Origin: Desulfobacterales bacterium
Lineage (GTDB): Bacteria > Desulfobacterota > Desulfobacteria > Desulfobacterales > JAAELO01
Assembly (NCBI GenBank): GCA_024226555.1
Contig: JAAELO010000011.1
Span: 1-64,000 of the forward strand
Length of the DNA stretch: 64,000 nucleotides
Reading direction: 5' to 3'
Shown: positions 23,761-42,988 of the stretch, piece by piece
Layout: every line of letters begins with the position of its first letter
How positions within the stretch are numbered: position 1 is the stretch's first letter
Notes under the pieces: generated by a model
Told to the model about the DNA's origin: nothing
The model's input: only the letters and a program-made list of their open reading frames with translations
The model's database searches: none
Made by a program: the position numbers and the translations under genes

Positions 23761-25056
23761 CTACATATCATTAAAAGTTTTAAGTTCATTGAGATATTTC
23801 TCACCAAGTTTTGGTTCGCTCATATTTATATAAGCTGCAATTCCTTTCAATCTCTCAAGAGAATCACCCTCTTGCATGGGTTTACCATTTTTAAGATTAT
23901 GTATAGCAGCTCTTAATTTTCTTTTTATATCCCTTGATACCCTTGGCTTTTGATCATCATTTACCACAAGGCCTGTAACTCTTTGACACACATTTGGCCT
24001 TATCACTTTCGTTTTATCAGGATGAATTACAAATCCTTCATCTTTTACAATTCGTTTAGTAAATTCGATTACAGCTCCTGGATTAAAACCTTTTAATTTC
24101 TCTCTTGGTATGCTGAAAGTTATATCATCTGCATATCTTGAATATCTGCATCCAAATTTCTTTGCTAATCCATATAGTCTACTATCCATCTTCATACAAA
24201 GAGTATTTGTAAGTGCCGGGCTCGTTGGTGCTCCCTGGGGAAGACATCTTTGTCCAAGGGAAACAAAGTGCTTCTTTCCTTCAAATTCGACTATTTTTCT
24301 TGGAGCTTCAGTACATATTAAAGCAAGCAGAGTTGCAACCTGCTCTCTATAACCTGCTTTCCTGAAAATACCTTTTACTCTTGCATAACTTACAGATGGG
24401 AAAAAATCCTTGATATCCATTTTGATAAGGTAAAATGGGTTTCTATGAGTTATTGCATTTGTATAGATTGATCTTGAAGGTAAAAAACCATGTGCAGCAC
24501 CATGAACCAAGAGCTTTTCAGCAATATTTTCAAGTATCCATCTCTGGGTCTTTTTTAAAAGTGGCATTGGAGCCCATATATCTCTATCTCCACCTCTCTT
24601 TTTTGGTATTGTAAAACGGTAATAATGAAGACTTGTTGCAGCATCACGGTGATAGGACAGCCACCTTAATTTACCGATTGTAAGATCAAGAACTTTTGCA
24701 AGTTGCTCTGGTGAATCTATTACAGGAAGTTCATTTTCAGCTATTCTTTTTTCAGGATTTTCAATATCCCACTTATCAAAATCATCACCATCGTTCCAAT
24801 AGATACCTTCACCCAGATGAACGATATGGTTTGATTTATAAGCTTGCCAACTCTCTTTTCTAAGTTTTTTTCGCTCAGCTGCTTCATCTTTAAGACTTTG
24901 CTTGTAATTTTTCAGCTCCCTCTTCGACATCCCCATGGTTTCCTGCCTCTGTACAAGGTAACCACGTTTCTCAAGCTGTTTTTCAATATAAGCGTTAATA
25001 CCGCCAGATTTTTCAATCTCATTCCAAAGTTTTTCCGGACTTGTTCTTTTAGTCAT
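23761..25056 (-). CDS. Retron-type reverse transcriptase
   Basis: This 431-aa RNA-directed DNA polymerase has an N-terminal extension (residues 1-110) and a retron-type RT domain. The fingers motif FTIPKKRGGDRDIWAP is followed by the retron-diagnostic NAxxH (N200-H204). Motif A IKMDIKDFFPS holds catalytic D214, then comes LPQGAPTSPALTN, motif C YADD (308-311), HPDKTK and the retron-diagnostic VTG (360-362). A primed cDNA would be made on the msr-msd RNA encoded at about 36640-36921. It is the last gene of the four-gene operon, 4 nt after the SWIM/WGR gene. No group II maturase domain is present. Confidence 0.95.
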   Translation of the reverse strand: MTKRTSPEKLWNEIEKSGGINAYIEKQLEKRGYLVQRQETMGMSKRELKNYKQSLKDEAAERKKLRKESWQAYKSNHIVHLGEGIYWNDGDDFDKWDIENPEKRIAENELPVIDSPEQLAKVLDLTIGKLRWLSYHRDAATSLHYYRFTIPKKRGGDRDIWAPMPLLKKTQRWILENIAEKLLVHGAAHGFLPSRSIYTNAITHRNPFYLIKMDIKDFFPSVSYARVKGIFRKAGYREQVATLLALICTEAPRKIVEFEGKKHFVSLGQRCLPQGAPTSPALTNTLCMKMDSRLYGLAKKFGCRYSRYADDITFSIPREKLKGFNPGAVIEFTKRIVKDEGFVIHPDKTKVIRPNVCQRVTGLVVNDDQKPRVSRDIKRKLRAAIHNLKNGKPMQEGDSLERLKGIAAYINMSEPKLGEKYLNELKTFNDM

Positions 25057-25060
25057 TGTG

Positions 25061-26926
25061 TTATCCTGCTGTTGCGTCTAAGTAACCTTGATCATTAAGG
25101 TTTGATAATCGGTCAAAGTAAGCATCTCTTGCATCATTAACTGAGTTAAATTGAAAGTTCTGCAATCTCATTGAACCATAATTTAATCCCCATCTAACTT
25201 TTAATCGCTTATTATTCAAGGTTACCTGATAAATCATTTCACCTTTTTTACTTCGTTTGCTATATGTTTTTGTTTCAACTGTAATTTTTGCTCTTATCTT
25301 ACTATTACTTCTTTTTTGTTCACTATATTCATTAAACAGGAGGTGAAGAGCTATTAAGTGAGCACATGGTCCTTGCTTCAATCCCTGTTTTTTGTAATAT
25401 GTACAGGTACAACTTGCTTTTTTGACAAAACCATCTTCATCAAAAAGAATTACCGGGGTATAATCTCTTTTGTCTTCCTTAACAGTAACATTTCCGGTAA
25501 CTTCAACTCCTGTTCCTATAAACCGATCCTCTTTTTCAATCGCAATAGAACCTTTTATTGACATCAGATCATGGGCAAACCGTTCATTAATGTTTCTAAA
25601 TTCAAGTTTACGAAGATCAAGATTTTCATTAGTAACAGGTCTTAACCTATACAACTCTGATGCTGAGTCATACATAACTAGGCCTTGCTGACATGCAGTT
25701 TGCAGAGCCTTGAAAATTTCCATTTTTTTCAAACCGGTACTCTTTGTAAGTTCCTTTAAAGAGCCGGACCTTTTCTCGAGTAAAGTATCAGTTACAACAT
25801 CCAGATTTTTAAGATCAGCATTTTGTCTTGGCAGCAGAAGATCAAAATTAAGTGATTGCGCCCAGTTAAATGCTGCAAAGCCTGTAATTGCCAATGTAAG
25901 TGTCATGTTTTTTCCCCGGAAAATCCAAAATCCAGGAAATCCTCCACTACCGGTTACATTTACATCTATTTTATCTGTGAACGGCAGGAATTGTTTCATC
26001 ATCATCAGTCTTCGTCTTCCCCAGATACGCAAAACCTTTGATTCTTTGCCTTTATAAATCTCTTCTGAAGTTACTATAACTTTTTCCCAGGGTTCCAAAA
26101 CGATAAGTGGATATTGACCGGGCACAAGTTCAATTCTTAATCCTCTTCTCTTCCCTTTCTGATCTTTATTCATTCTAAGGAAACGAAGAATGTTATAAAA
26201 ATCAAGGGTTGCCATAGAAAAGCTATCACTTTTCAGAGTTGCTGATGATTGAACCTGTAGGAATCCACGCAACCATGAATCTGGAACTTTCACCTGTTTT
26301 TCGAGGGTTTTTGTTTCTTCAGAACCTTTGGTGGAAAGGGTTACATCCTTTCCAATTTTAAGAAAACTTTTCTTGAAGCTTCTCATCTTTTTGATCCCTT
26401 TTAAAAGGGATTCACTAAAATCAATATTTGTGGTTCCAAATGTTGGATTTCCTTTGATATTAAAAGCATCTTTGTTAACTGAAAGCTTTGCATATGACCC
26501 CTCGTCTTTACTGAAAACTTCAAATGAAACTTCATCGGGATATACAGAAATCAGAGGATCAAGAATGAAATATGCATTTGGATCATTTCTTTCAAGCCAG
26601 TTAAAATACTCCTGTTGAGCATTCCATGAAGAAAGGTTTGAAGCTTCTCTTTTCATCTGAAGATATGCAAGATATTTGCTCCTGTCCTTAGGTACATATC
26701 TGTAATCACTTTTAACAACTGTAGAGAGTGCTATCATGGCTTCTCTGAAATGAATAGGATCTTTAAGTTCACCCTCAAAAGAAACTGTATCTCTGTAGAT
26801 ATTTCCTAAAAAGGATATTTCAGATTTGTCATCACTTTCAAGTACTTTACTTTCGTTATCGTACCCAACTTTAATTTCAGTAAAGTCTTCTAAAGCGTCC
26901 TGATTGTTCTCATTTTCGTGGGTCAT
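25061..26926 (-). CDS. Winged-helix / SWIM zinc finger / WGR protein of the retron operon
   Basis: This is a 621-aa protein numbered from the ATG at 26926 (GGGAATAAA upstream); an ATG at 26959 would add 11 residues but lacks a ribosome-binding site. About 1-370 is a long N-terminal region of unknown fold. About 380-430 is a winged helix (LLEKRSGSLKELTKSTGL). The SWIM zinc motif is C506-x-C508 to C521-x-H523. The C-terminus, about 564-619, is a WGR domain (VRWGLNYGSMR, then DARDAYFDRLSNLNDQGY). WGR domains occur in PARP-type DNA-damage sensors and SWIM fingers bind nucleic acid or protein. It is coupled to the RT gene with 4 nt between, so it is probably the retron-associated effector or adaptor. 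Confidence 0.9.
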   Translation of the reverse strand: MTHENENNQDALEDFTEIKVGYDNESKVLESDDKSEISFLGNIYRDTVSFEGELKDPIHFREAMIALSTVVKSDYRYVPKDRSKYLAYLQMKREASNLSSWNAQQEYFNWLERNDPNAYFILDPLISVYPDEVSFEVFSKDEGSYAKLSVNKDAFNIKGNPTFGTTNIDFSESLLKGIKKMRSFKKSFLKIGKDVTLSTKGSEETKTLEKQVKVPDSWLRGFLQVQSSATLKSDSFSMATLDFYNILRFLRMNKDQKGKRRGLRIELVPGQYPLIVLEPWEKVIVTSEEIYKGKESKVLRIWGRRRLMMMKQFLPFTDKIDVNVTGSGGFPGFWIFRGKNMTLTLAITGFAAFNWAQSLNFDLLLPRQNADLKNLDVVTDTLLEKRSGSLKELTKSTGLKKMEIFKALQTACQQGLVMYDSASELYRLRPVTNENLDLRKLEFRNINERFAHDLMSIKGSIAIEKEDRFIGTGVEVTGNVTVKEDKRDYTPVILFDEDGFVKKASCTCTYYKKQGLKQGPCAHLIALHLLFNEYSEQKRSNSKIRAKITVETKTYSKRSKKGEMIYQVTLNNKRLKVRWGLNYGSMRLQNFQFNSVNDARDAYFDRLSNLNDQGYLDATAG

Positions 26927-26977
26927 AATTTTATTCCCAGATTTTCTAAGTTCATTCAAATATCAAAACATTTTTAT

Positions 26978-27167: not shown

Positions 27168-30100
27168 TTATGCTGTTTTTAATCTTGCCCTTTTTGACCT
27201 TCTAAGTGCCCTGAAAACTGCTTTTTTAATGTCTTCATCCTTCTCCATATCTGCAAAGGAAGACAGTTTTCCTTCAGCTTTTTCATCTTTCATCTGTGCA
27301 AGACTCTCAATGGCCCCTAACCTGACTTCCTCATCAAGATTCTGATCTTCCATGATTGAAGTAAGGCTTTCAATATCATTATTTTTAACAAGAAGTGGTA
27401 GTACAACACCCTGATAATCGCTTTTTGAAGCTGAGTCATGAATTAATTTGTCAGGTGCTTTATTTCCTGTCAATCTCATAAAACTGGTTCTGTCAGAGAT
27501 AACAATTTGTGCATCTGCCTCAATTTCAGCAAGTTTTGATGCTGCAATTTTTCTGATTTCGTCATTACTATTAATTAAAACTGATTCCAGAACCTCTTTA
27601 ACTTTATCATCAGTTGAATTTAAAGAAGACACTGCGGCTTTTTGAACATCTAAAAAGTTAATATCAAAGGGATAAACAGCTGCTTCTAACAGGTAATCTG
27701 ATGCAACATCATATCTTCCTGCAACCCATGTAAGTTTAGCAAGGCATTTTGTTACAGAATTAAGCTTTTTGATTTTAACTTTTTTAACTGCATAATCTAA
27801 ATTTGTTTTTTTCCATTTTTCAAAAAAGAATTCTACAGCAGATCCGATTTTATCCGCATATTTGGGGTCTGTATTTTTGTCCCGTCCTAAAATATGGGCA
27901 GCAACTGCAACTGAATCTTCATTAGTATTACTCAGAGTTTCATAAGCAGCATTAAGAGGTGCTGGTTTTGCATGAAGAAGTATTGAGGACAATTTTGTTC
28001 TTGTCTTATCTAAGCATTTATGAAGAAGTGAAAGAACTTTTTCAGGATCACCATTCTCATTAATTCTCTTAATTGAGTCTTTCACATCGTACCATTTGTC
28101 AACACATTGTACTGCGGCATAATCAGGTTCAAGTGATTCATTTCCAAACTGTTTTCTTGCACTTTCAACCGCTTTTTCTATTACATATTCATCTTTATCC
28201 TGTTTTATAAGGTCAAGAAGAATATCTCTTGTATAATCATCATTATTAAATCCGAGCATCTCAATAGCAGTTTCACGATAGTAATAATCATTGTCAAGGG
28301 CTTTTTGTCTTATATGCTTCCAGCCATCTTCAGTGTTTAACCATCTCAAACCTTTAACTGCTTTTTCTGAAATACCATCATTTCCAGAGACATATTTTGA
28401 AAGGAGTACAAAAACTTCATCCTTTTTGTCTGTTTTACCAAGGTGACCAATTGCTTCTATAGCTTCCTCTGAAAGTGCATGTTCTGAGTCAACAGCAAGC
28501 TTAAGAAGAAGATCAACAGCTCTTGCATCTGCCATAAGACCGAGAGCCGTTACAGCTCTTCTTCTATAATCATACTCTTCAAGAAGGTCCACTGCAGCAA
28601 GAAGTATTGAAATACCCTCATTTTGACCTGCAAGAGCAAGCCCTTCAGCAGCAAGAAATCTTAGGTCAGTCTCTTTGGATTCGAGCATTTTGACAAGAGC
28701 ATCTTTTGGTCCATCTCTTTTGTCCAATCTAAAACTTATGGATTTGACTGTTTTTTCCTTAATATCATCATCAGGATAGTTAATAAGTCTTGCAAGAAGC
28801 CCATCCACCTCATTGGTTCTTGCCCACCTCATACCATCAAGAAGTTGGTTAATAAAGGATGTTTCGTTTAAGGAAATACATATTTCAGAAAGGTCTACAA
28901 GTATTTTGGTTTTTCGTGGAAACTGTTTCTCTTCCCAGCTTCTATCTGGATTTTCATCAGTATAATCTTCTATGTGCTGGTCAAAACCACTAATTACAAG
29001 GATTGCGTTAAATACGTATCTTTTGTTTTTCCGGCTCTTTATAAGATTTAAGAGTATATCAAGTTTTTTTTCATCACGAAGGTTTCCAATTGCATCAAGT
29101 AATATACTATCAAACATTCCATCCGGATCAGACATTATTTTTTCCAACATAACACGGGATGTCTCAGGATCTTTCAGTTCCAACATCTGCTTAACTATTT
29201 TCTTAATTTCACTATCATTTTTACTATCCTGAAGAAGAACTGTGAGATATTTAAAAGCATCTTTATCTTTTTTAGTTGCAAGCAGAAATGCAATTGAAAA
29301 ATAGATATCGCGAAACCTTGTACCAAAACCACTAATTAAGATATCTCTTGCAGAGTCTTCCTGATCATAAAGGTCAGATAGCCATGCGACAGAAGTTCTT
29401 TGAAGTTTTTTCGAAACTGATTCGAAAATTCTTTTTGATGTTTTAAGTTTACCATTTATATCTACAAGTATTTTAGATGCTTCAAGTTCCAACCCATCAT
29501 CCCTTGTAAGCATAGTTTGTTCTAAAATTTTTTCCTTCTCTTGTTTGGTTCCATCTTCTGTTAAAAGCTTTAATCCTTCAGCTCCAATATCCATAAAACC
29601 GGCGCCAAGTGCTTCAGCTCCTAAAATTGCTGTTTCCAGTCCCATCTCTTTAAGATGAGCAAATGCACGCATTCTTACTTCAGAGATCGGATCTCTTAGA
29701 GTTTGTAGAAAAACCGGTTTTGAAGCTTCAAAATAATAGTTATTATCGTCTCCCATAACTCTGAGTATGTTTAAAGCTTTTTGTCTAATCCTTATAACTG
29801 ATCTTTCAGGTGTTGTTCTGTCAGAACCATGATAACCACCTTGCTCCCGTACAAGACCCACAAATGAGCCAAAAGCAAGCTGTAAAAGTTCCTCTCTTGA
29901 AGTTTTAAGTTCCAGAGTTTTAAGTTCTTTTAATTTTCCGATCTCATCTTTAAATCTGTATTTAAATATCTCAAAACCTTTATCCCAGTTAATTTGTTTC
30001 TTATTTGAAAGCAGAAATAACAGTTTGATAAGTTTGAGTTTTGTAAATCTTTCTCCATTGGCTAAAACATTGGCAACAATTAATATATCCTCTTCCGGTA

Positions 30101-33100
30101 TTGTGAAAGAAGGTTTATCACCTTTGTCATTAAAAAGTTCATTTACAAAAGTTTTGAAATTTTCAGGATATGATTTTAAAGCTTTTGCTGTTTCAAAACG
30201 TATAGTTTCATCTTTTGCAGATAAACAAGATATACATTTCTCCGGTGATCCTTCATTACTTGTTAATTCAAGAAGCATTAATAAAAGGAGTGTTACTTTT
30301 TTTACATCTTTATCAGAACTTTCCAAAAGGGAATAAAGTTTATCCTCACAAGCATCTCCCAGAAGTAAATAAGCTGGTAGTAATGATCTGACAACTGATC
30401 CCTCTTTTGAGAAAAGAACAGGAGTAGAGCTCGTATCTCCTAAATATGCAAGTCCAAGAGACGCCTGAAAAAGCACATTCTCATCCTTATCTTTTAGGGC
30501 GTAAAGTAAAAGGTCTTTTGCATCATTTGCACAAAGCTCTGAGAGTGCTTTGATCGCAGTCTGTTTTATTCCGTTGTGTTTACTTTTCAAAAAAGGTTTT
30601 ATAAGATCAACAGATGTTTTATCTCCAAGTTCACCAAGTCCTGCAAGAGCAAGCTCTATTAGTTTTTTCCATTCAGATGAAGATATTGTAATGTCTCTTT
30701 CAGGTAGTTGAAAACTGTCTTTAATCTCATCACTTTCCGGCTCTTCAATAGAAAGAAGACCTTTTAATGGCTCAAGAACTTCAATATCTCCAAACACAGC
30801 TCTTGCTTTCGCAGCAAGAGCCCTTACATCATAATATTTGCTGTTTAGAGCTTCAATCAATGTATCTTTTTCATTAATAGTAACAAGAGCATCAATTACA
30901 CTTTTTCTTACTCTGTAATTTCGATCATTTATTCCCTGGGAGAGTATATTAATAATGGAATCGTCACTGATTTTGATTAGCTCTTCAACAGTTCTTAACC
31001 GAATATCAACTTTTTCTGAAGAGATAGCAGCTCCAAGTGTATCAATCTCTTTAGATTTTTTTCTTTTTAAGGAGTATTCAAATGCATCGGTTCTGAGTGA
31101 TTTATTACTATCATTGAAGAAATCAAACAGAATAGTTTCCGACCATTTCTCTTTTTCAGATGCTTTAACTTCATTGAAAACTTCCTGTCTTATATCGGTA
31201 TGAACACTTCTGTTTATAAAATTCAAAGTGTTTTCATTTCCACCTTTAACCTGAAGATTTAAAGATGCTTTAAAAGCTTCACTTCTAAGCTTTGGATCAC
31301 TATCATTAAGAGCCATTAATAATAGATCATAAGCCTCATCTGTAACATTTTCTGAATCTTTTCTTATCTCATCAGATAAAACCTGAAGTCCTCTTTTTCG
31401 TACATCTTCATAATTTGATGAAAAAGATTTCATAACAACACTGTATGCATTGTCATATAGACTTGAGAGTGCTGAAAAAGCAGCGTCTCTAACTTCCAAA
31501 GCCTCATCATTTAAGATATTTGAGAGATGTCTTATAGCTCTTAAATCATTTAGAACTGAAAATGCCTGACAAACAGAAACTCTTGTATTTACATCATCTT
31601 CACGACTAAGTTGCAGTAGTAGTCCAAATGCTCTTGTGTCGTTAAGGATTGCTAAAAGCCTTGCCCCTTCAAGACAAGTATCAACAACCCTGCAAGCCAT
31701 GGCAAAAAGAAGAGGCTCAAAGTCGTTTTGTGTCAATGTTACTTTTGTCTCTTTTACATCAGGAAGCTTTTCGGTTTCCTTTGCTCCATAAGTTTCAATC
31801 TCATAAACCTGCCTGTGAACATTTTTATCTTTACTTCTTAAAACTTTAGTTAGATTAGTTTTAGTCATTATGAGAAGATAAAATGCAATTTTTCTGACAT
31901 CTGCACTTTCGTCTTCGCAGTGTTTATGAATTGCTGCCTCAACTTCAATACTATCTAAAAGCTTTCTTTGGTAAAGCCTTATTAGTGATAGCTTTCGAAT
32001 ATCATCAAACTTACTTTGAAGTCCTTTAAGGGATGCATCAACAGATTCTTTACCATAAATATTTTCAAGACTGTATAAAGCCTGAACTCTTACGCCATGA
32101 ATTTTATTTTGAAGAGCATTAAAAAGCTTAACGATTAGCTGGTCACTTTTAGCAGCCAGTTTTTCAAGCATCTTAACAGCGGTAACACCAATGTCCGCCC
32201 TACCAGCTGAAAGTGCTTTTTCTATAGTGACTATATTGTCTTCACCGGTTAACTTGAGAAGTCCCTTAAACGTAGCCATTCTAAGGTTTTCATCATTATC
32301 CTTAAGAAATTCATACAAATAATCGGGAGCTTTTTTATGTTTTGATCCAGCAAGATAATTAACACTTTTCAGTTTAACATCAGGATCTCCCTCACTCTTA
32401 ATATGCTTATTAATTATTTTAAGAGCAGTATTATCATCATATGCAGATATCTTTTTAAGAGCTTTTAGGCGGTCTGCAGGTTTGTCCTGTTTAAGGTCAC
32501 GCTCTCCTTCTTTGTAGGCATCATAAAATGTAAGATGATGATCATTTAATCTTCCGGCTTCGTCAATTGGGAAAACTCTTATTGAGTTATTTGTGAAAGC
32601 ACTAACTATATGGTCATGTTTTTCTATTGTGACCATGGCAAGATCAACTACTTTTCCGACTCCATCTTTTTGTGTTGCTGGTTTTCCTGTTTTTGCCCAT
32701 GCCTTAATAGTTTTATCAAATGAACCTGTATAAAATCTCTCTTTACCCATTAAAATAGAAGTTATTCTGCCTTCATGGACATCTTTTCCCCTGTCTAATG
32801 GTTCAAGCCTGCCCCTTGCATGTGTAACTTTGACAGCCTGATCAGATCCTGCTGAATAGAAAGAAAGCTCCTCTTTTTCAAAAAGAAGTGCGTTAACAGA
32901 TCCATCATGTATTTTTTCACTTTCGCTAAGTTCAAAACTATCTTTATCTTCAGATTCATAAACAGCACAATATCCGGTTGTTGTTCCTATAACAAAAAAG
33001 TTTCCGGATGGATCTGACGTGATCGCTGTGCCCAGTCCTATTTCAGAATTCTCAGGAAAAGAAAGATCTTGAAAAATATCTCCTTTCTCTGAAAGTATCA

Positions 33101-33449
33101 AAATATTATTTTGTAATAGTACCCCCACCCTTTTATCAGAAAGGAGTGTCAAACCAACTGGCCTTGATATTAGGCTGGCCCCAAGTGCTTTTGTAGTCTT
33201 TCCATCACAAAGATAGATATGGTTATCAACACCTGCAACCCAGATATTTGATTTGGAATCAAGTAAAACTGCAAGGCCGGCACATGGTAATTCAAATGAA
33301 TTTAACCGTTTTTTTTCAACATTCAAATGATATAGATTTGATTCTGTAAATTCAGGATGTTCTGTTGTAAAATAAAGATCACTTCCTGATCCTGTAATTG
33401 CCTTAATATTACCGCGATATGTAAGATATTGTTCCGAACCCATTACCAT
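27168..33449 (-). CDS. Giant beta-propeller / HEAT-repeat protein of the retron operon
   Basis: This 2093-aa protein begins with a WD40-like propeller (residues about 1-300; repeats such as HEGRITSILMGKERFYTGSF and KAWAKTGKP). From about 315 to the C-terminus follow dozens of HEAT/PBS-lyase-like repeats (patterns such as DVRKIAFYLL, EVRDAAFSALSSLYD, DYRRRAVTALGLMADARAVD). No enzymatic motif was found. Such solenoids are scaffolds for protein or nucleic acid. It starts 15 nt after the BRCT/HEAT gene with TTGGAGT before ATG. A dispersed repeat begins 2 bp past the stop. Its fixed place in the operon argues for a structural part of the retron system. Confidence 0.9.
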   Translation of the reverse strand: MVMGSEQYLTYRGNIKAITGSGSDLYFTTEHPEFTESNLYHLNVEKKRLNSFELPCAGLAVLLDSKSNIWVAGVDNHIYLCDGKTTKALGASLISRPVGLTLLSDKRVGVLLQNNILILSEKGDIFQDLSFPENSEIGLGTAITSDPSGNFFVIGTTTGYCAVYESEDKDSFELSESEKIHDGSVNALLFEKEELSFYSAGSDQAVKVTHARGRLEPLDRGKDVHEGRITSILMGKERFYTGSFDKTIKAWAKTGKPATQKDGVGKVVDLAMVTIEKHDHIVSAFTNNSIRVFPIDEAGRLNDHHLTFYDAYKEGERDLKQDKPADRLKALKKISAYDDNTALKIINKHIKSEGDPDVKLKSVNYLAGSKHKKAPDYLYEFLKDNDENLRMATFKGLLKLTGEDNIVTIEKALSAGRADIGVTAVKMLEKLAAKSDQLIVKLFNALQNKIHGVRVQALYSLENIYGKESVDASLKGLQSKFDDIRKLSLIRLYQRKLLDSIEVEAAIHKHCEDESADVRKIAFYLLIMTKTNLTKVLRSKDKNVHRQVYEIETYGAKETEKLPDVKETKVTLTQNDFEPLLFAMACRVVDTCLEGARLLAILNDTRAFGLLLQLSREDDVNTRVSVCQAFSVLNDLRAIRHLSNILNDEALEVRDAAFSALSSLYDNAYSVVMKSFSSNYEDVRKRGLQVLSDEIRKDSENVTDEAYDLLLMALNDSDPKLRSEAFKASLNLQVKGGNENTLNFINRSVHTDIRQEVFNEVKASEKEKWSETILFDFFNDSNKSLRTDAFEYSLKRKKSKEIDTLGAAISSEKVDIRLRTVEELIKISDDSIINILSQGINDRNYRVRKSVIDALVTINEKDTLIEALNSKYYDVRALAAKARAVFGDIEVLEPLKGLLSIEEPESDEIKDSFQLPERDITISSSEWKKLIELALAGLGELGDKTSVDLIKPFLKSKHNGIKQTAIKALSELCANDAKDLLLYALKDKDENVLFQASLGLAYLGDTSSTPVLFSKEGSVVRSLLPAYLLLGDACEDKLYSLLESSDKDVKKVTLLLLMLLELTSNEGSPEKCISCLSAKDETIRFETAKALKSYPENFKTFVNELFNDKGDKPSFTIPEEDILIVANVLANGERFTKLKLIKLLFLLSNKKQINWDKGFEIFKYRFKDEIGKLKELKTLELKTSREELLQLAFGSFVGLVREQGGYHGSDRTTPERSVIRIRQKALNILRVMGDDNNYYFEASKPVFLQTLRDPISEVRMRAFAHLKEMGLETAILGAEALGAGFMDIGAEGLKLLTEDGTKQEKEKILEQTMLTRDDGLELEASKILVDINGKLKTSKRIFESVSKKLQRTSVAWLSDLYDQEDSARDILISGFGTRFRDIYFSIAFLLATKKDKDAFKYLTVLLQDSKNDSEIKKIVKQMLELKDPETSRVMLEKIMSDPDGMFDSILLDAIGNLRDEKKLDILLNLIKSRKNKRYVFNAILVISGFDQHIEDYTDENPDRSWEEKQFPRKTKILVDLSEICISLNETSFINQLLDGMRWARTNEVDGLLARLINYPDDDIKEKTVKSISFRLDKRDGPKDALVKMLESKETDLRFLAAEGLALAGQNEGISILLAAVDLLEEYDYRRRAVTALGLMADARAVDLLLKLAVDSEHALSEEAIEAIGHLGKTDKKDEVFVLLSKYVSGNDGISEKAVKGLRWLNTEDGWKHIRQKALDNDYYYRETAIEMLGFNNDDYTRDILLDLIKQDKDEYVIEKAVESARKQFGNESLEPDYAAVQCVDKWYDVKDSIKRINENGDPEKVLSLLHKCLDKTRTKLSSILLHAKPAPLNAAYETLSNTNEDSVAVAAHILGRDKNTDPKYADKIGSAVEFFFEKWKKTNLDYAVKKVKIKKLNSVTKCLAKLTWVAGRYDVASDYLLEAAVYPFDINFLDVQKAAVSSLNSTDDKVKEVLESVLINSNDEIRKIAASKLAEIEADAQIVISDRTSFMRLTGNKAPDKLIHDSASKSDYQGVVLPLLVKNNDIESLTSIMEDQNLDEEVRLGAIESLAQMKDEKAEGKLSSFADMEKDEDIKKAVFRALRRSKRARLKTA

Positions 33450-33464
33450 ACTCCAATTCCCTGA

Positions 33465-36400
33465 TTATATAAGGTCAGGGTGTGCTTGATGAATACGTGT
33501 TATTGCAACAAGGCAAGCTGCCTTTTCGCTTACTCCAAGTGACCTGGTAAATTTTGTTAAGAGCGGTGAAACCTCAATTGCAAAGTCTTTATCTTCCACT
33601 GCAAAATCTCTTATAACTTCTATCAATGACAGTTTAGCTTTTCTTGTTGGCAGAGGTTTAACATTCACTCCTTTTTTAGATTCCTTATCAAGCTTGGTAC
33701 CAGGCAGTTCAAAGAGAATCCTCCCAAGAAGGCTTCGCAGGCTTCCATCCTCAGAGGGTCTGTTTCCGGGTTTTTCCGGAAAAACAATCTTATCCTCTTC
33801 AAGACTGTTTTTGTAGCTTGATGATATATCTCTTCCTTTATAAAGGAACCATAAAGTTCTGATTGCAAATGATCTTAATTTTCTGTCACTACTCTCAGTA
33901 AGTCTAAAAAGTTCTTCCGCTATTTGAAACTCACTGTTCTCTGAAATAAGTTTTATACCTATATCGCGCGTGGTTGAATCAAATGATTCACAAAACCTGT
34001 AAGAAACGGAGGTTGGAAGAGATTTTGGGTCAAGTCTGAAAGTTCTGTTTTCAGGATGATCTTCAGCAAAAAGAGATTTTCCAACAAACCTTGCTACCTT
34101 TTTATCTTCAGCTTCACTAAGATCAACCAACTCTTTTGCCGGAGCCCATCTTGCAAATTCCCATTTTGCAAGATCAAGAGCAAACACTCTTACCTTATCC
34201 AGATCATGAAAGAAAAGAGGCATAATTCTTTCAAAACTTAAGAATTCCTCAGGAATTTCGGCTTCCATATCAACAGGTCTGTCTGTTTCTGCAAGACATA
34301 TATCACGGTGGTGGAGTTTAAAATATTTAATAGCAAAATTCTTTAGTTGTGATTCACCTTTTGTGGTTATTGATTCAAAGAGTTTTTCACAACCCTCAAT
34401 ATTATTACCAGCGGAAACCTCTTTTCCACTTATCATATTTATGAATGAAGTTTCAGAGATAATTTTCAGATCTGCTCCGTCACTTATAAAACTTTCAGCT
34501 TTTAGCTGTTTGCTTCCTTTTTTACCCTCTTCATAGAGAGGGGAACCTTCATCACCTATAACCAGATAACTTAAACTCTTGTTAACTGAAGAAGATATTT
34601 TTCCCCCAGCTTCCTTAACCTTATTTTGAGCATCTTTTCTAACAAGTGTCGCCATTTTTCCTGTGAAAAGGAAAGATTGTTTTTTCAAATCAACAGTTAC
34701 TTTGTCAGGAACTTTGACATCCTTTTCTTTCTCAGTCCCTCCTACAAAATCTGAAGGAGTAAAATTCTTAATCATTACATCTGAAGCAAATGTGAAATAT
34801 TCAGGCTCTTTTCTCTGAACAAGTTCCATTAACCATTCAAAACCAAGGTCTTTAGGTTTAAAAAGTCTTTCATCGGAAAGAAGGTTAAAGATTGTTTCTG
34901 CAAAATCATTCTCGTACATTACTCTGTTTGCCCAGCCCAGATCACTTGACTTTACTTCTTCTATAAAATTATTTTCATCGAACATTGGTTGATATGCAAG
35001 GGCCTTGAAGAAATCAAGTCCGATGGTTTCACATTTAAGTTTTCCGTTTTCGATCCATTCTGTAGCAGTATTTTTACTTGGACTCAAAAGTAGTCTTTTA
35101 AAAAAAGAAGGTTCAATCTTATTTATATCAAATTTCTCAATATTAATTTTTGCAAAGTTAAAATTATTATACCTGATATTTGATGAGACTTTATCGCTTG
35201 TTTCTATAATATCGATAAAGAAATCAATTCCAAGCTGATCAAGTTTGTAAAGCTCAACAATTGTACTTTCAGCAAATTTGAAAGTAATCTTTGTTTTTAA
35301 TCTCTCTTTGAGCCATTCCTTTGTTAACTCACTGGCACCAAAGTGTTTTCTTATCATCTCTGCTGCAAAGTCATGACCGTTTTCAGTTTCAAGAAGCTCT
35401 CCCCAGGCATCAAGACCAATGTCTTTGCGAGGGTCATACTCTTTTATAAGTAGACTTGCAAGTTCACGTACCTTCTTGTTAGAGTTATTCATCATCTTTA
35501 TGAGTTCCTTAACAGGAAGATCCCTTGCATATCTTTTTGCATAGGATACTGCAAATTCGCAGGCTTTATCTGATGATGAATGAAAAAGAGTTAAAACAGT
35601 ATCATGAAGATCCAGATCTTTAAAGGAAGCCTGTTCCAACTTTGGAACATTTTCAAAGATCCATAGCACAAATTCATGAACTTCAGCTTCCTGTACTTTT
35701 ATAAATTTTTTGATCCATAAAGGGTCTATTTCTCTGATTTCAGTTTTAAAATCTGCTTTTAAAGCTTCCATTGCAAATTGTCTAACTTTATCAGCTTTTG
35801 CCCGTTCAAGAAGGGAAAGAAGAGGCCTCATCGATCTTTTCCAGAGATCAGGAAACGCTCTGTTTTTAAGGAGATCAGCATTATATCTTTGTGGAGTAAA
35901 ACGTCTTCTTGAGTATTTACGGGTTTGATGGAAGAATATATGATTTGCAATCCAACTTGTATATCCAACATCTGTGTAACAAGCCAAAACATCTGTTGTA
36001 TAATCAGCATACATAACCGGAAATGTTTCCCCGGTTCTTCTTAAAAAACGCCACCCTCTTCTAACAAGGTATCCAAGTGTTTTTTTGCTTATTGAGTGTT
36101 GTTTTGAAAGGGCCATATCAAATCTTGCACACAAAGCACCATAAATTTCGGTATCGATAGACTCTTCTGCTTCTTTAAATATATTCTTTAAAGCTCTGAA
36201 AGGTCCATATGTAAGATTAACATCAGCAATTACTTCAAGGAGAGTATTCCTTGCAAAGACATCTTTATCCTGCCACAACTCCATAATAACTTCATGAAGC
36301 TTTAATCTGTCTGAAAGAGGAACTTCAGCACTTTCTGATTCTAAAAGCTTCATCTGTTCAATTCTGTATGTTGCCTGGTCTTCAAGTGGCTTTTTCAGAA

Positions 36401-36572
36401 AAGATCTGCTGTTAATTGTTTCTATGAAGCCCTCAAAAGTTGGAGCGCCTTCTCGTACAGGTGTTTCTGGATTATTCCACTGTGACGACAAATTAACAAT
36501 CATAGAGGAAAGCGCAGGATCTTTACAGGAATAGGCATGATAAATATCTTCAAGATTGATTTGGATGGACAA
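33465..36572 (-). CDS. HEAT-like / BRCT-domain protein, first gene of the retron operon
   Basis: This 1035-aa protein has helical repeat regions at about 90-600 and 730-1000. They include RRGWRFLRRTGETFP, a pattern I associate with MolR-like WGR/HEAT proteins. A single BRCT domain lies at about 624-710 (FLFTGKMATLVRKDAQNKV, GGKISSSVNKSLSYLVIGD), similar to the BRCT of NAD-dependent DNA ligase. BRCT domains bind phosphopeptides or DNA ends. The start is TTG at 36572 with TAGGTG upstream. It begins 63 nt after the terminator of the retron RNA unit. The WGR in a neighbour and BRCT here together suggest recognition of DNA ends or nicks, an inference. Confidence 0.88.
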   Translation of the reverse strand: MSIQINLEDIYHAYSCKDPALSSMIVNLSSQWNNPETPVREGAPTFEGFIETINSRSFLKKPLEDQATYRIEQMKLLESESAEVPLSDRLKLHEVIMELWQDKDVFARNTLLEVIADVNLTYGPFRALKNIFKEAEESIDTEIYGALCARFDMALSKQHSISKKTLGYLVRRGWRFLRRTGETFPVMYADYTTDVLACYTDVGYTSWIANHIFFHQTRKYSRRRFTPQRYNADLLKNRAFPDLWKRSMRPLLSLLERAKADKVRQFAMEALKADFKTEIREIDPLWIKKFIKVQEAEVHEFVLWIFENVPKLEQASFKDLDLHDTVLTLFHSSSDKACEFAVSYAKRYARDLPVKELIKMMNNSNKKVRELASLLIKEYDPRKDIGLDAWGELLETENGHDFAAEMIRKHFGASELTKEWLKERLKTKITFKFAESTIVELYKLDQLGIDFFIDIIETSDKVSSNIRYNNFNFAKINIEKFDINKIEPSFFKRLLLSPSKNTATEWIENGKLKCETIGLDFFKALAYQPMFDENNFIEEVKSSDLGWANRVMYENDFAETIFNLLSDERLFKPKDLGFEWLMELVQRKEPEYFTFASDVMIKNFTPSDFVGGTEKEKDVKVPDKVTVDLKKQSFLFTGKMATLVRKDAQNKVKEAGGKISSSVNKSLSYLVIGDEGSPLYEEGKKGSKQLKAESFISDGADLKIISETSFINMISGKEVSAGNNIEGCEKLFESITTKGESQLKNFAIKYFKLHHRDICLAETDRPVDMEAEIPEEFLSFERIMPLFFHDLDKVRVFALDLAKWEFARWAPAKELVDLSEAEDKKVARFVGKSLFAEDHPENRTFRLDPKSLPTSVSYRFCESFDSTTRDIGIKLISENSEFQIAEELFRLTESSDRKLRSFAIRTLWFLYKGRDISSSYKNSLEEDKIVFPEKPGNRPSEDGSLRSLLGRILFELPGTKLDKESKKGVNVKPLPTRKAKLSLIEVIRDFAVEDKDFAIEVSPLLTKFTRSLGVSEKAACLVAITRIHQAHPDLI

Positions 36573-36635: not shown

Positions 36636-36670
36636 AAAAAAAAAGGCTGCATATGTTATATACAGCCTTT
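36636..36670 (-). terminator. Intrinsic terminator of the retron RNA
   Basis: On the minus strand AAAGGCTG...CAGCCTTT forms a stem (with an inner ATAT/ATAT extension) followed by nine T. It lies 6 nt beyond the predicted a2 segment and 63 nt before the first protein gene, so it separates the RNA unit from the operon. Confidence 0.9.
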
Positions 36671-36921
36671 AAAACAGGAAGATTAAAATCTACTACATGA
36701 CCTGGAACAATGGAAGGCTCACTGAATCGCAGTGCTATTAGTACCCCTGGTACAAGTGGAACCACGATCGGCGAGGTTGAACCAGACCCGCTAGTACCAG
36801 GGGTACTAATAGCACTATAGCGAGTCTGAAACAGTCTTCCTTGTGATGTATGTATGTCAATGAACCAAAAGCGGCGAAACGCCGCCCGTTAAAAAGCTAG
36901 ACATGTTCTTCCTAAAATCTA
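36640..36921 (-). ncRNA. Candidate retron msr-msd non-coding RNA
   Basis: A promoter, a structured RNA of about 285 nt and an intrinsic terminator lie on the same strand as the RT. Read 5' to 3': a1 AGGAAGA (36913-36907) pairs with a2 TCTTCCT (36682-36676), and ACATG/CATGT may extend this. Next comes CTAGC with the candidate branching G at 36897, then a GCGGCG/CGCCGC hairpin with a UUU loop (36885-36871), the msr hallmark. The msd hairpin has perfect 23-bp arms (36816-36794 and 36753-36731) around a 40-nt loop, on a broken lower stem (CTTCC/GGAAG, CAGT/ACTG, GCGA/TCGC). The segment is more GC-rich than its surroundings. Exact RNA and cDNA ends are not determinable by eye. Confidence 0.85.
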
Positions 36922-36927
36922 AAATTA

Positions 36928-36955
36928 AGTTTACATTAGCTAAAAACTTTGTCAA
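36928..36955 (-). promoter_or_regulatory. Promoter of the retron RNA
   Basis: On the minus strand a perfect TTGACA (36955-36950) is followed after 16 bp by TAAACT (36933-36928), placing the start near 36921, a few bases before the a1 arm. A GAGTGAA/TTCACTC hairpin lies just upstream at 36965-36982 and could be an operator or the end of another transcript. Confidence 0.75.
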
Positions 36956-37159: not shown

Positions 37160-37275
37160 ACTCAAAAAAAGAACTGTAAAGTTTATATAATTAAATTTTT
37201 TTATAAACAAATCGACTCGTTATTTTTTATCAAACCTTATATTTCATCCAAAATTCTGATTATTAGAGGTTCCCC
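37160..37275 (-). repeat. Dispersed palindromic repeat, left-truncated copy
   Basis: The left terminus is lost; from AAAAAAAGAACTGT onward the family sequence is present, including a TTTATAAA-type cassette, CGACTCGTTATTTTTTATC and the right end ATTATTAGAGGTTCCCC. Confidence 0.7.
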
Positions 37276-37460
37276 AGAGTTATTAAAGGTTTCACTGACA
37301 AATTTTCCAGGGTAATCACAGAAATGAGAAAAGATGGAACAATTAAGAAAATAGAAAAAAAATATTATTAGGCCAGCTCTCCTCTGATAACTATCTAAAT
37401 AAAAATTCTGCTCCCTATACCAACAATTATAAATCCTTTTAAACTGTTAAATTAGTTTCT

Positions 37461-37594
37461 GGGAACCTCTAATAATTAGAAACTGGGTCAAAACTTTTAT
37501 AAAATTTCTGATTTTATAAAATATATGTCCATTTTGTTTCTTTTTCTTCAAAGAATTGTAGTTCGATCAAATCGCAATTATTATAGAGTTGCCC
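37461..37594 (+). repeat. Dispersed palindromic repeat, variant core
   Basis: Left end GGGAACCTCTAATAATTAGA and right end GCAATTATTATAGAGTTGCCC. The middle is divergent (TTTTATAAAATTTCTGATTT) and lacks the AATAACGAG block. It lies about 80 bp upstream of the ABC-F start. Confidence 0.7.
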
Positions 37595-42286: not shown

Positions 42287-42988
42287 GAGTTCTTGTCCCT
42301 TGCGGAAAGTATATTAAAACTGGTTCGAAAATTTCTTGAAAGTGGTGTTATGACAGATGAAGGGTGGGAGGCAAGTCTTGTAGGTAGTCCTCAGGGTGGA
42401 GTTATAAGTCCGCTAATTGCAAATGTATATCTTGATATCTTCGATCAGTTTATCATAAGTCGGGGACATAGGGTTGTACGTTATGCAGATGATATCCTGA
42501 TTTTAACCGGATCATAAAGAGCAGCATAAAATGCTTTGAAACAGGCAACGCTATTCTTGGAAGGTAAGCTTAAGCTCACTGTTAATCGAAAGAAAACCCA
42601 TATTGTCCATAGTGATAATGGTGTAATTTTTATAGGAATAGAGCTCTATTCCTATAAAACCGAAATTCAGGAAAGGAAAATAAGGGAATTTAAAGATAAA
42701 GTGAGAAAGGCAACAAGACGCAACTCTCCTGTAAATCTGAAGAAAGTAATTAAAAATCTAAAACCAATATTGAGAGGATTTGGAAATTACTTCAAAATAG
42801 CACGGCACAAGTGGTTGTATAATAGCTTACATGGACAAGAAGAAGACTCAGAGCCAAACAATTCCGGCTGTGGAAAATCAGTAAAAGGCTTACACCCCAT
42901 ACTAAGGCAATTGAGTTATAAGGGGCCTTTCATGAAAATAAACTCCTGGAGAAATTCTAAATGTCCTTATGCAACAAGGGAAATTTGA
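42287..42988 (+). pseudogene. Dead group II intron reverse transcriptase/maturase
   Basis: This 5'-truncated LtrA-type gene begins within the fingers/palm (SILKLVRKFLESGVM). It contains GSPQGGVISPLIANVYLD and YADDILIL, then the thumb and maturase X region (KLKLTVNRKKTH, LKPILRGFGNYF). Two in-frame TAA codons near 42515 and 42527 interrupt otherwise continuous homology (LTGS-stop-RAA-stop-NALKQA), each one base from AAA or GAA. The 5' half, the intron RNA domains and a target site are not seen. It is bracketed by a repeat at 42077-42192 and a repeat terminus at 43009-43026. Confidence 0.88.

Follow-up and report, generated by a model that had tools for sequence, protein, structure and literature searches.

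A probable msr-msd RNA gene heads a type XIII retron operon in a Desulfobacterales bacterium

Introduction

Where does a retron encode its RNA when there is no room for it beside the reverse transcriptase (RT)? This question is raised by a 64,000-nucleotide stretch of DNA from a Desulfobacterales bacterium (contig JAAELO010000011.1), which we refer to as the window. The gap between the gene for a SWIM protein and the gene for a retron RT is only 4 nt, and therefore an msr-msd cannot fit at the usual site beside the RT. An earlier note on the window had proposed a self-contained retron msr-msd RNA gene. We conclude that the minus-strand gene at 36921-36642 is very likely the msr-msd RNA gene of a type XIII retron, and we propose for it a trans-acting RNA and an msDNA mechanism. 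Three independent lines favor this assignment: the operon encodes type XIII proteins, a conserved and covarying RNA precedes its first gene across phyla, and a covariance model of RNAs from the window's subfamily (subfamily A) matches RNAs that lie next to the RT in a second subfamily (subfamily B). Type XIII retrons are reportedly a class in the 2020 classification of Mestre and colleagues.

Results

The RNA gene heads an operon of four genes, HEATS-HEATL-SWIM-RT, in the same minus-strand orientation as the genes themselves, and G36897 in the RNA gene is 11.8 kb away from where the RT begins. HEATS (33465..36572) encodes a largely helical HEAT/ARM repeat protein of 1035 aa, in which domain searches placed an RFC1/LigA-type BRCT domain at residues ~629-690, nearest to those of RFC1 and LigA (DNA ligase A). 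HEATL (27168..33449) encodes a WD40 and HEAT repeat protein of 2093 aa. The SWIM protein (25061..26959; 632 aa) and the RT (23761..25056; 431 aa) follow. We compared these proteins with the type XIII models of PADLOC-DB (RT_XIII, SWIM_XIII, HEAT-ARM_XIII and WGR_XIII), and all four matched: HEATS and HEATL each matched HEAT-ARM_XIII with E=0, the SWIM protein matched SWIM_XIII at 7e-178, and the RT matched RT_XIII at 2.8e-161. The window thus holds the combination of a type XIII locus, namely an RT of the XIII clade, a SWIM protein and HEAT/ARM proteins.

The RT carries the motifs RYADD (YADD), TNAITH (NAxxH) and VTG. Its best matches were the PADLOC and PDB retron RTs; among the solved retron RTs, the best was the Ec86 RT (2.4e-39). 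Against the NCBIfam retron St85 RT model it scored 228.7 bits, just under the 235-bit cut-off. We also considered a diversity-generating retroelement; the closest models to this RT are retrons. Elsewhere in the window, a group II intron maturase remnant at 42536-42988 (GIIM domain, 3e-11) is distinct from the retron RT, and a 187-aa protein at 3535-4098 matches the PADLOC candidate-defence model PDC-M42C (9e-45).

The predicted structure of the SWIM protein (pLDDT 78.9, pTM 0.70) is laid out as a clamp-like fold at residues 60-362, a winged-helix-like part, a SWIM zinc finger at 514-538 and a WGR-like C-terminus. In the predicted model, residues 60-362 aligned to a PCNA-like clamp over 211 residues (Z 15.7, rmsd 2.7 Å), and Foldseek also recovered the clamp fold (7.2e-8), with the two domains of such a clamp present in the model. 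The WGR-like end is a trait of subfamily A; WGR reached the Pfam threshold in four SWIM-family members only, and the window copy was assigned as WGR-like by eye. Taken together, these domains of the SWIM protein and HEATS suggest a complex that clamps DNA or binds its ends. Domain searches of the operon proteins found no nuclease or other toxic or catalytic domain.

These protein features bear on what the system is for. The msr-msd assignment could be right and the system could still be a housekeeping or DNA-repair device, which is compatible with the RNA part of our explanation. The predicted PCNA-like fold, the BRCT domain near RFC1/LigA, the HEAT repeats, the WGR domain in four family members and the failure to find a toxic catalytic domain all speak for such a device. 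However, the locus is sporadically distributed, in 4/389 genomes of the class (E<=1e-120) and 4/291 genomes of the order, and gene orders differ between type XIII loci, which fits defence better. We therefore regard a repair or housekeeping role as unlikely. By analogy with other retrons, phage defence is the probable function of the operon.

The proposed RNA gene begins behind promoter-like boxes, TTGACA (36955-36950) and TAAACT (36933-36928), which together span 36928..36955 on the minus strand with a 16-nt spacer and 10/12 matches; alone they are not significant, since the region contains 11 promoter-like sites against 6.1 expected. The boxes, the CTAGC at 36900-36896 (CUAGC in the RNA) with a candidate branching (priming) guanosine at 36897, and the msr hairpin GGGCGGCG-UUU-CGCCGC (36871..36887) were all present on the minus strand as the earlier note had described them. 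The guanosine is supported by aligned copies, and the hairpin by the fold and by covarying pairs in the alignments of both subfamilies. The same note had described an a1/a2 pairing of AGGAAGA with TCTTCCT. This pairing exists and is longer than the 7 bp claimed: a1 (36898..36913) comprises AGGAAGA at 36913-36907 and TCTA at 36901-36898 beside the branching G, a2 (36676..36692) comprises TAGA at 36692-36689 and TCTTCCT at 36682-36676, and both segments pair.

The msd region is dominated by a long hairpin. Inverted-repeat analysis identified the perfect 23-bp arms claimed previously, a 5' arm at 36816-36794 and a fully complementary 3' arm at 36753-36731, around a 40-nt loop; a separate inverted-repeat search gave 29-nt arms at 93%. 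The loop, or apical part of the msd (36754..36793), contains a core, GGTCTGGTTCAACCTCGC-GATCGTGGTTCC, that is kept in subfamily A. The region from 36731 to 36816, which the earlier reading took as the source of the DNA, does hold the arms; the template is likely larger, starting near 36693 and reaching 36840 or further. Based on fold and covariation, we place the putative msd template at 36693..36842, with an outer stem GGAAGACUG / CAGUGAGCCUUCC, the long arms and the loop, and we infer the DNA ends accordingly. An intrinsic terminator, a 13-bp stem followed by a T run, occupies 36642..36670. It lies 5 nt past a2, one nucleotide closer than the 6 nt reported before, and it gives the RNA gene its own end, as the description "self-contained" had implied.

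The minus-strand RNA is unusually stable (z = -8.4; 0/200 shuffles equally stable), and the plus strand is as well (z = -8.9), so that the fold alone does not pick the strand. We assign the minus strand because of the operon direction, the terminator and the homologues. Rfam gave no match at gathering thresholds, and we attribute the sub-threshold matches to the microRNAs mir-126 and mir-624 to chance likeness to a long hairpin.

To place the RNA among its relatives, we collected type XIII loci with a SWIM-protein profile and kept 80 of 428. Single-sequence RT scans of the genome and viral contigs gave no matches, but the SWIM alignment did find loci. RT matches near 1e-100 (L003-L005, L009-L013) leave roughly the first 100 residues of the model uncovered; we set these aside as other retron-like RTs. 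SWIM proteins of subfamily A are 43-54% identical to that of the window, and those of subfamily B about 33%. The gene order HEATS-HEATL-SWIM-RT is conserved among relatives in subfamily A, and subfamily B has another HEAT protein.

The window genome has a single locus of the RNA, and its homologue lies upstream of HEATS, the first operon gene, in seven other genomes. Carriers are Desulfobacterales HSG16, which belongs to the window's own order, gammaproteobacterium 45_16_T64, Zavarzinella, Limnoglobus (two copies), Thiothrix and Fimbriiglobus; in a Thiotrichaceae MAG the RNA upstream of HEATS is partial, cut by the contig end. In intact subfamily A loci, the RNA lies 11.5-12 kb from the RT in contig coordinates. 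Seven of the eight subfamily A copies have a terminator-like hairpin after a2, and therefore being "self-contained" is a property of subfamily A. In HSG16, the RNA and HEATS are on one contig and HEATL-SWIM-RT on another; these are possibly two co-regulated units. In the two HSG16 loci, L132 and L020, each unit stands behind a very similar CTTGACAAAAT...TTGTTAATTGAAT sequence. In eight subfamily A loci, mostly myxobacterial (L136-L138, L140-L144), we found no RNA of the family upstream of HEATS, and an inverted-repeat search for it in the myxobacterial loci gave nothing convincing. Either this placement is not universal in subfamily A, and the RNA of these eight loci may have moved, or their RNA is too diverged.

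In homologous loci, the stems are kept with compensatory change across phyla. RNAalifold predicted 71 pairs for the eight subfamily A copies, 43/71 with changes on both sides, and 50 pairs for 33 subfamily B copies, 40/50 with changes on both sides. The a1/a2 columns are among those with compensatory changes in the eight subfamily A sequences, as befits an a1/a2-paired msr-msd RNA. Cognate msd arms are 92% Watson-Crick complementary, compared with 44% for arms taken from different loci. A profile built without the window found the window RNA at E=5.5e-40, and at 1.1e-32 when HSG16 was also left out. Seven of the eight subfamily A copies have a G at the candidate branching position, as do 33/33 aligned subfamily B copies, where it is the G of an invariant UUGC; the exception, L146, lacks both the AGC and a branching G at the expected place.

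In most subfamily B loci, the related RNA lies directly upstream of the RT. The subfamily A covariance model recovered full-length subfamily B RNAs at these known places in 7/20 loci, with E-values, to be read as rough, of 7e-7 to 0.009. Because it did so, we judge from sequence comparison that the RNAs of subfamilies A and B are one RNA family, and that the window RNA belongs with those of other type XIII loci.

The location of the RNA, 70 nt ahead of the first gene, together with the intrinsic terminator at its end, could also suggest a structured leader or attenuator that regulates the operon with the terminator as a switch and is not reverse transcribed. We consider this very improbable. 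The subfamily B homologue is mostly directly upstream of the RT, so a fixed place before the first gene is not what is kept; pairing of a1 with a2 beside an unpaired junction G is how retrons are arranged; and attenuation has no need of a perfect 23-bp stem whose sequence is free.

A few hundred bp away from the RNA gene, at 37254-37481, the window contains an element of ~228 bp bounded by 21-nt inverted repeats (TTCTGATTATTAGAGGTTCCC), the ends of which recur at dozens of places in the genome and are MITE- or IS-end-like. With a real multicopy inverted-repeat element so close, the long inverted repeat of the RNA gene could likewise be of mobile or palindromic origin, a MITE or REP inserted beside the operon. 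We give this idea almost no weight: neither the RNA nor its stem occurs elsewhere in the genome, and conserved homologues with compensatory changes occupy the corresponding site in other phyla.

We next compared stems between copies of the RNA. Tandem RNA copies occur in four loci: two each in Limnoglobus, G545 and a Prochloraceae MAG, and four in an Acidobacteria MAG. By coordinates, these are L135:2338-2930 (2 copies), L018:16008-16510 (2), L095:11724-12721 (4) and L078:11652-13175 (2). In tandem copies the frame is conserved and the stems are unrelated yet self-complementary; in L095, a1/a2 differ as well. In Limnoglobus, the two copies share a frame and loop of 96 + 31 + 45 = 172 nt with zero differences, whereas the 23-nt arms agree at 6/23 positions, which is chance level, and each pair is perfectly self-complementary. 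Thus, an unrelated inverted repeat has taken the place of both 23-nt msd arms. The intact loop between them speaks against a single crossover as the explanation, which it cannot be, and drift confined to the arms would demand a rate of change vastly above that of the frame. Gene conversion in patches, acting on the frame and loop, is possible. Stems of close species can be stable, for example identical in L043 and L045, and therefore replacement is not constant.

We also asked what the stems contain and where they come from. TACTA occurs in 19/55 distinct arms versus 1.8 expected, indicating that the stems show a word preference. GTAC occurs in 18/55 arms, compared with 4.1 in mononucleotide shuffles and 11.2 in dinucleotide shuffles (maximum 18); we rejected GTAC as a methylation bait since its excess is only marginal against the latter. 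The window stem had no match in the viral contigs searched that would mark it as a phage-derived spacer, and against phages it gave only a chance 16-nt match. Two other long stems had no significant match in the phage collections searched (best E about 1). Within their own genomes, neither the window stem (up to 3 mismatches) nor one Limnoglobus stem had a second copy.

Discussion

Our results suggest how the locus could work. Reasoning from known retrons, the RNA would act in trans on the RT: a1 and a2 would pair, the RT would prime from the 2'-OH of G36897, and it would copy the msd upwards from about 36693. The product would be an RNA-linked DNA of roughly 150 nt with a 23-bp DNA hairpin as its core, and by the same analogy the RT very probably does copy the RNA into a small DNA hairpin. 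More loosely, the RT-msDNA may join the clamp-like SWIM protein and the HEAT scaffolds and hold them inactive. The duplex stem could then serve as bait, such that a phage protein binding, cutting or methylating it would free a DNA-binding effector complex. The effector step is the less firm part because there is no catalytic domain to point to.

Under such a mechanism, stem replacement between copies would alter what is sensed. One could go further and imagine type XIII msr-msd arrays with exchangeable baits, in which the arms are swapped and the frame and loop held constant, so that one RT makes several msDNAs sensing different phage DNA-binding or DNA-modifying proteins through a sliding-clamp-like effector. 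We offer this as speculation with rather poor odds; if true, it would represent an actively diversified retron sensor.

The RNA reading itself has practical consequences. For a retron type with no described RNA in the literature we searched, it supplies one that can be tested. It implies that a retron RNA can have a gene of its own, ~12 kb away from that of the enzyme, and work in trans, and annotation that looks only beside the RT misses such RNAs. Tandem copies that differ in the DNA-coding stem and little else make the role of the msDNA stem directly testable. PADLOC includes msr-msd models (PMC9252829). The papers that we searched contain no description of a type XIII retron ncRNA or of a retron with a sliding clamp; the type XIII RNA itself may already be known. 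Nor did we find in that literature a remote, separately terminated RNA, stem-swapped tandem copies or the clamp-like fold.

Compared with type XIII retrons, the window is the same in that all four proteins match at E 3e-161 or better and the msr-msd is in the same orientation at the same locus. It differs in RNA placement: the subfamily A RNA heads the operon with its own terminator, whereas the subfamily B RNA is mostly beside the RT. The RNA of Ec86 has a1/a2, a branching G, a UUU-loop msr hairpin and a single long msd hairpin. The window shares this anatomy and a homologous RT with Ec86/Eco1, the type II-A reference retron, but its RNA is larger (about 250 nt) and not beside the RT, the N-terminus of its RT is longer, and its accessory proteins are others. 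With the PCNA and 9-1-1 clamps, the SWIM protein has the predicted fold of residues 60-362 in common; identity is only ~10%, and the SWIM protein is fused to winged-helix-like, SWIM and WGR-like parts. In other retrons, msDNA is a sensor (PMC13158370, PMC12548924). The RT-DNA of Eco8 senses phage SSB (PMC13158370), and in Asa1/Squ1 a phage adenine methyltransferase acting on GATC of the RT-DNA is the trigger (PMC12548924). An RT-made DNA exposed to phage proteins would, by analogy, be common to these systems and type XIII, although type XIII stems favor TACTA- and GGTAC-like words and not the GATC of Asa1/Squ1.
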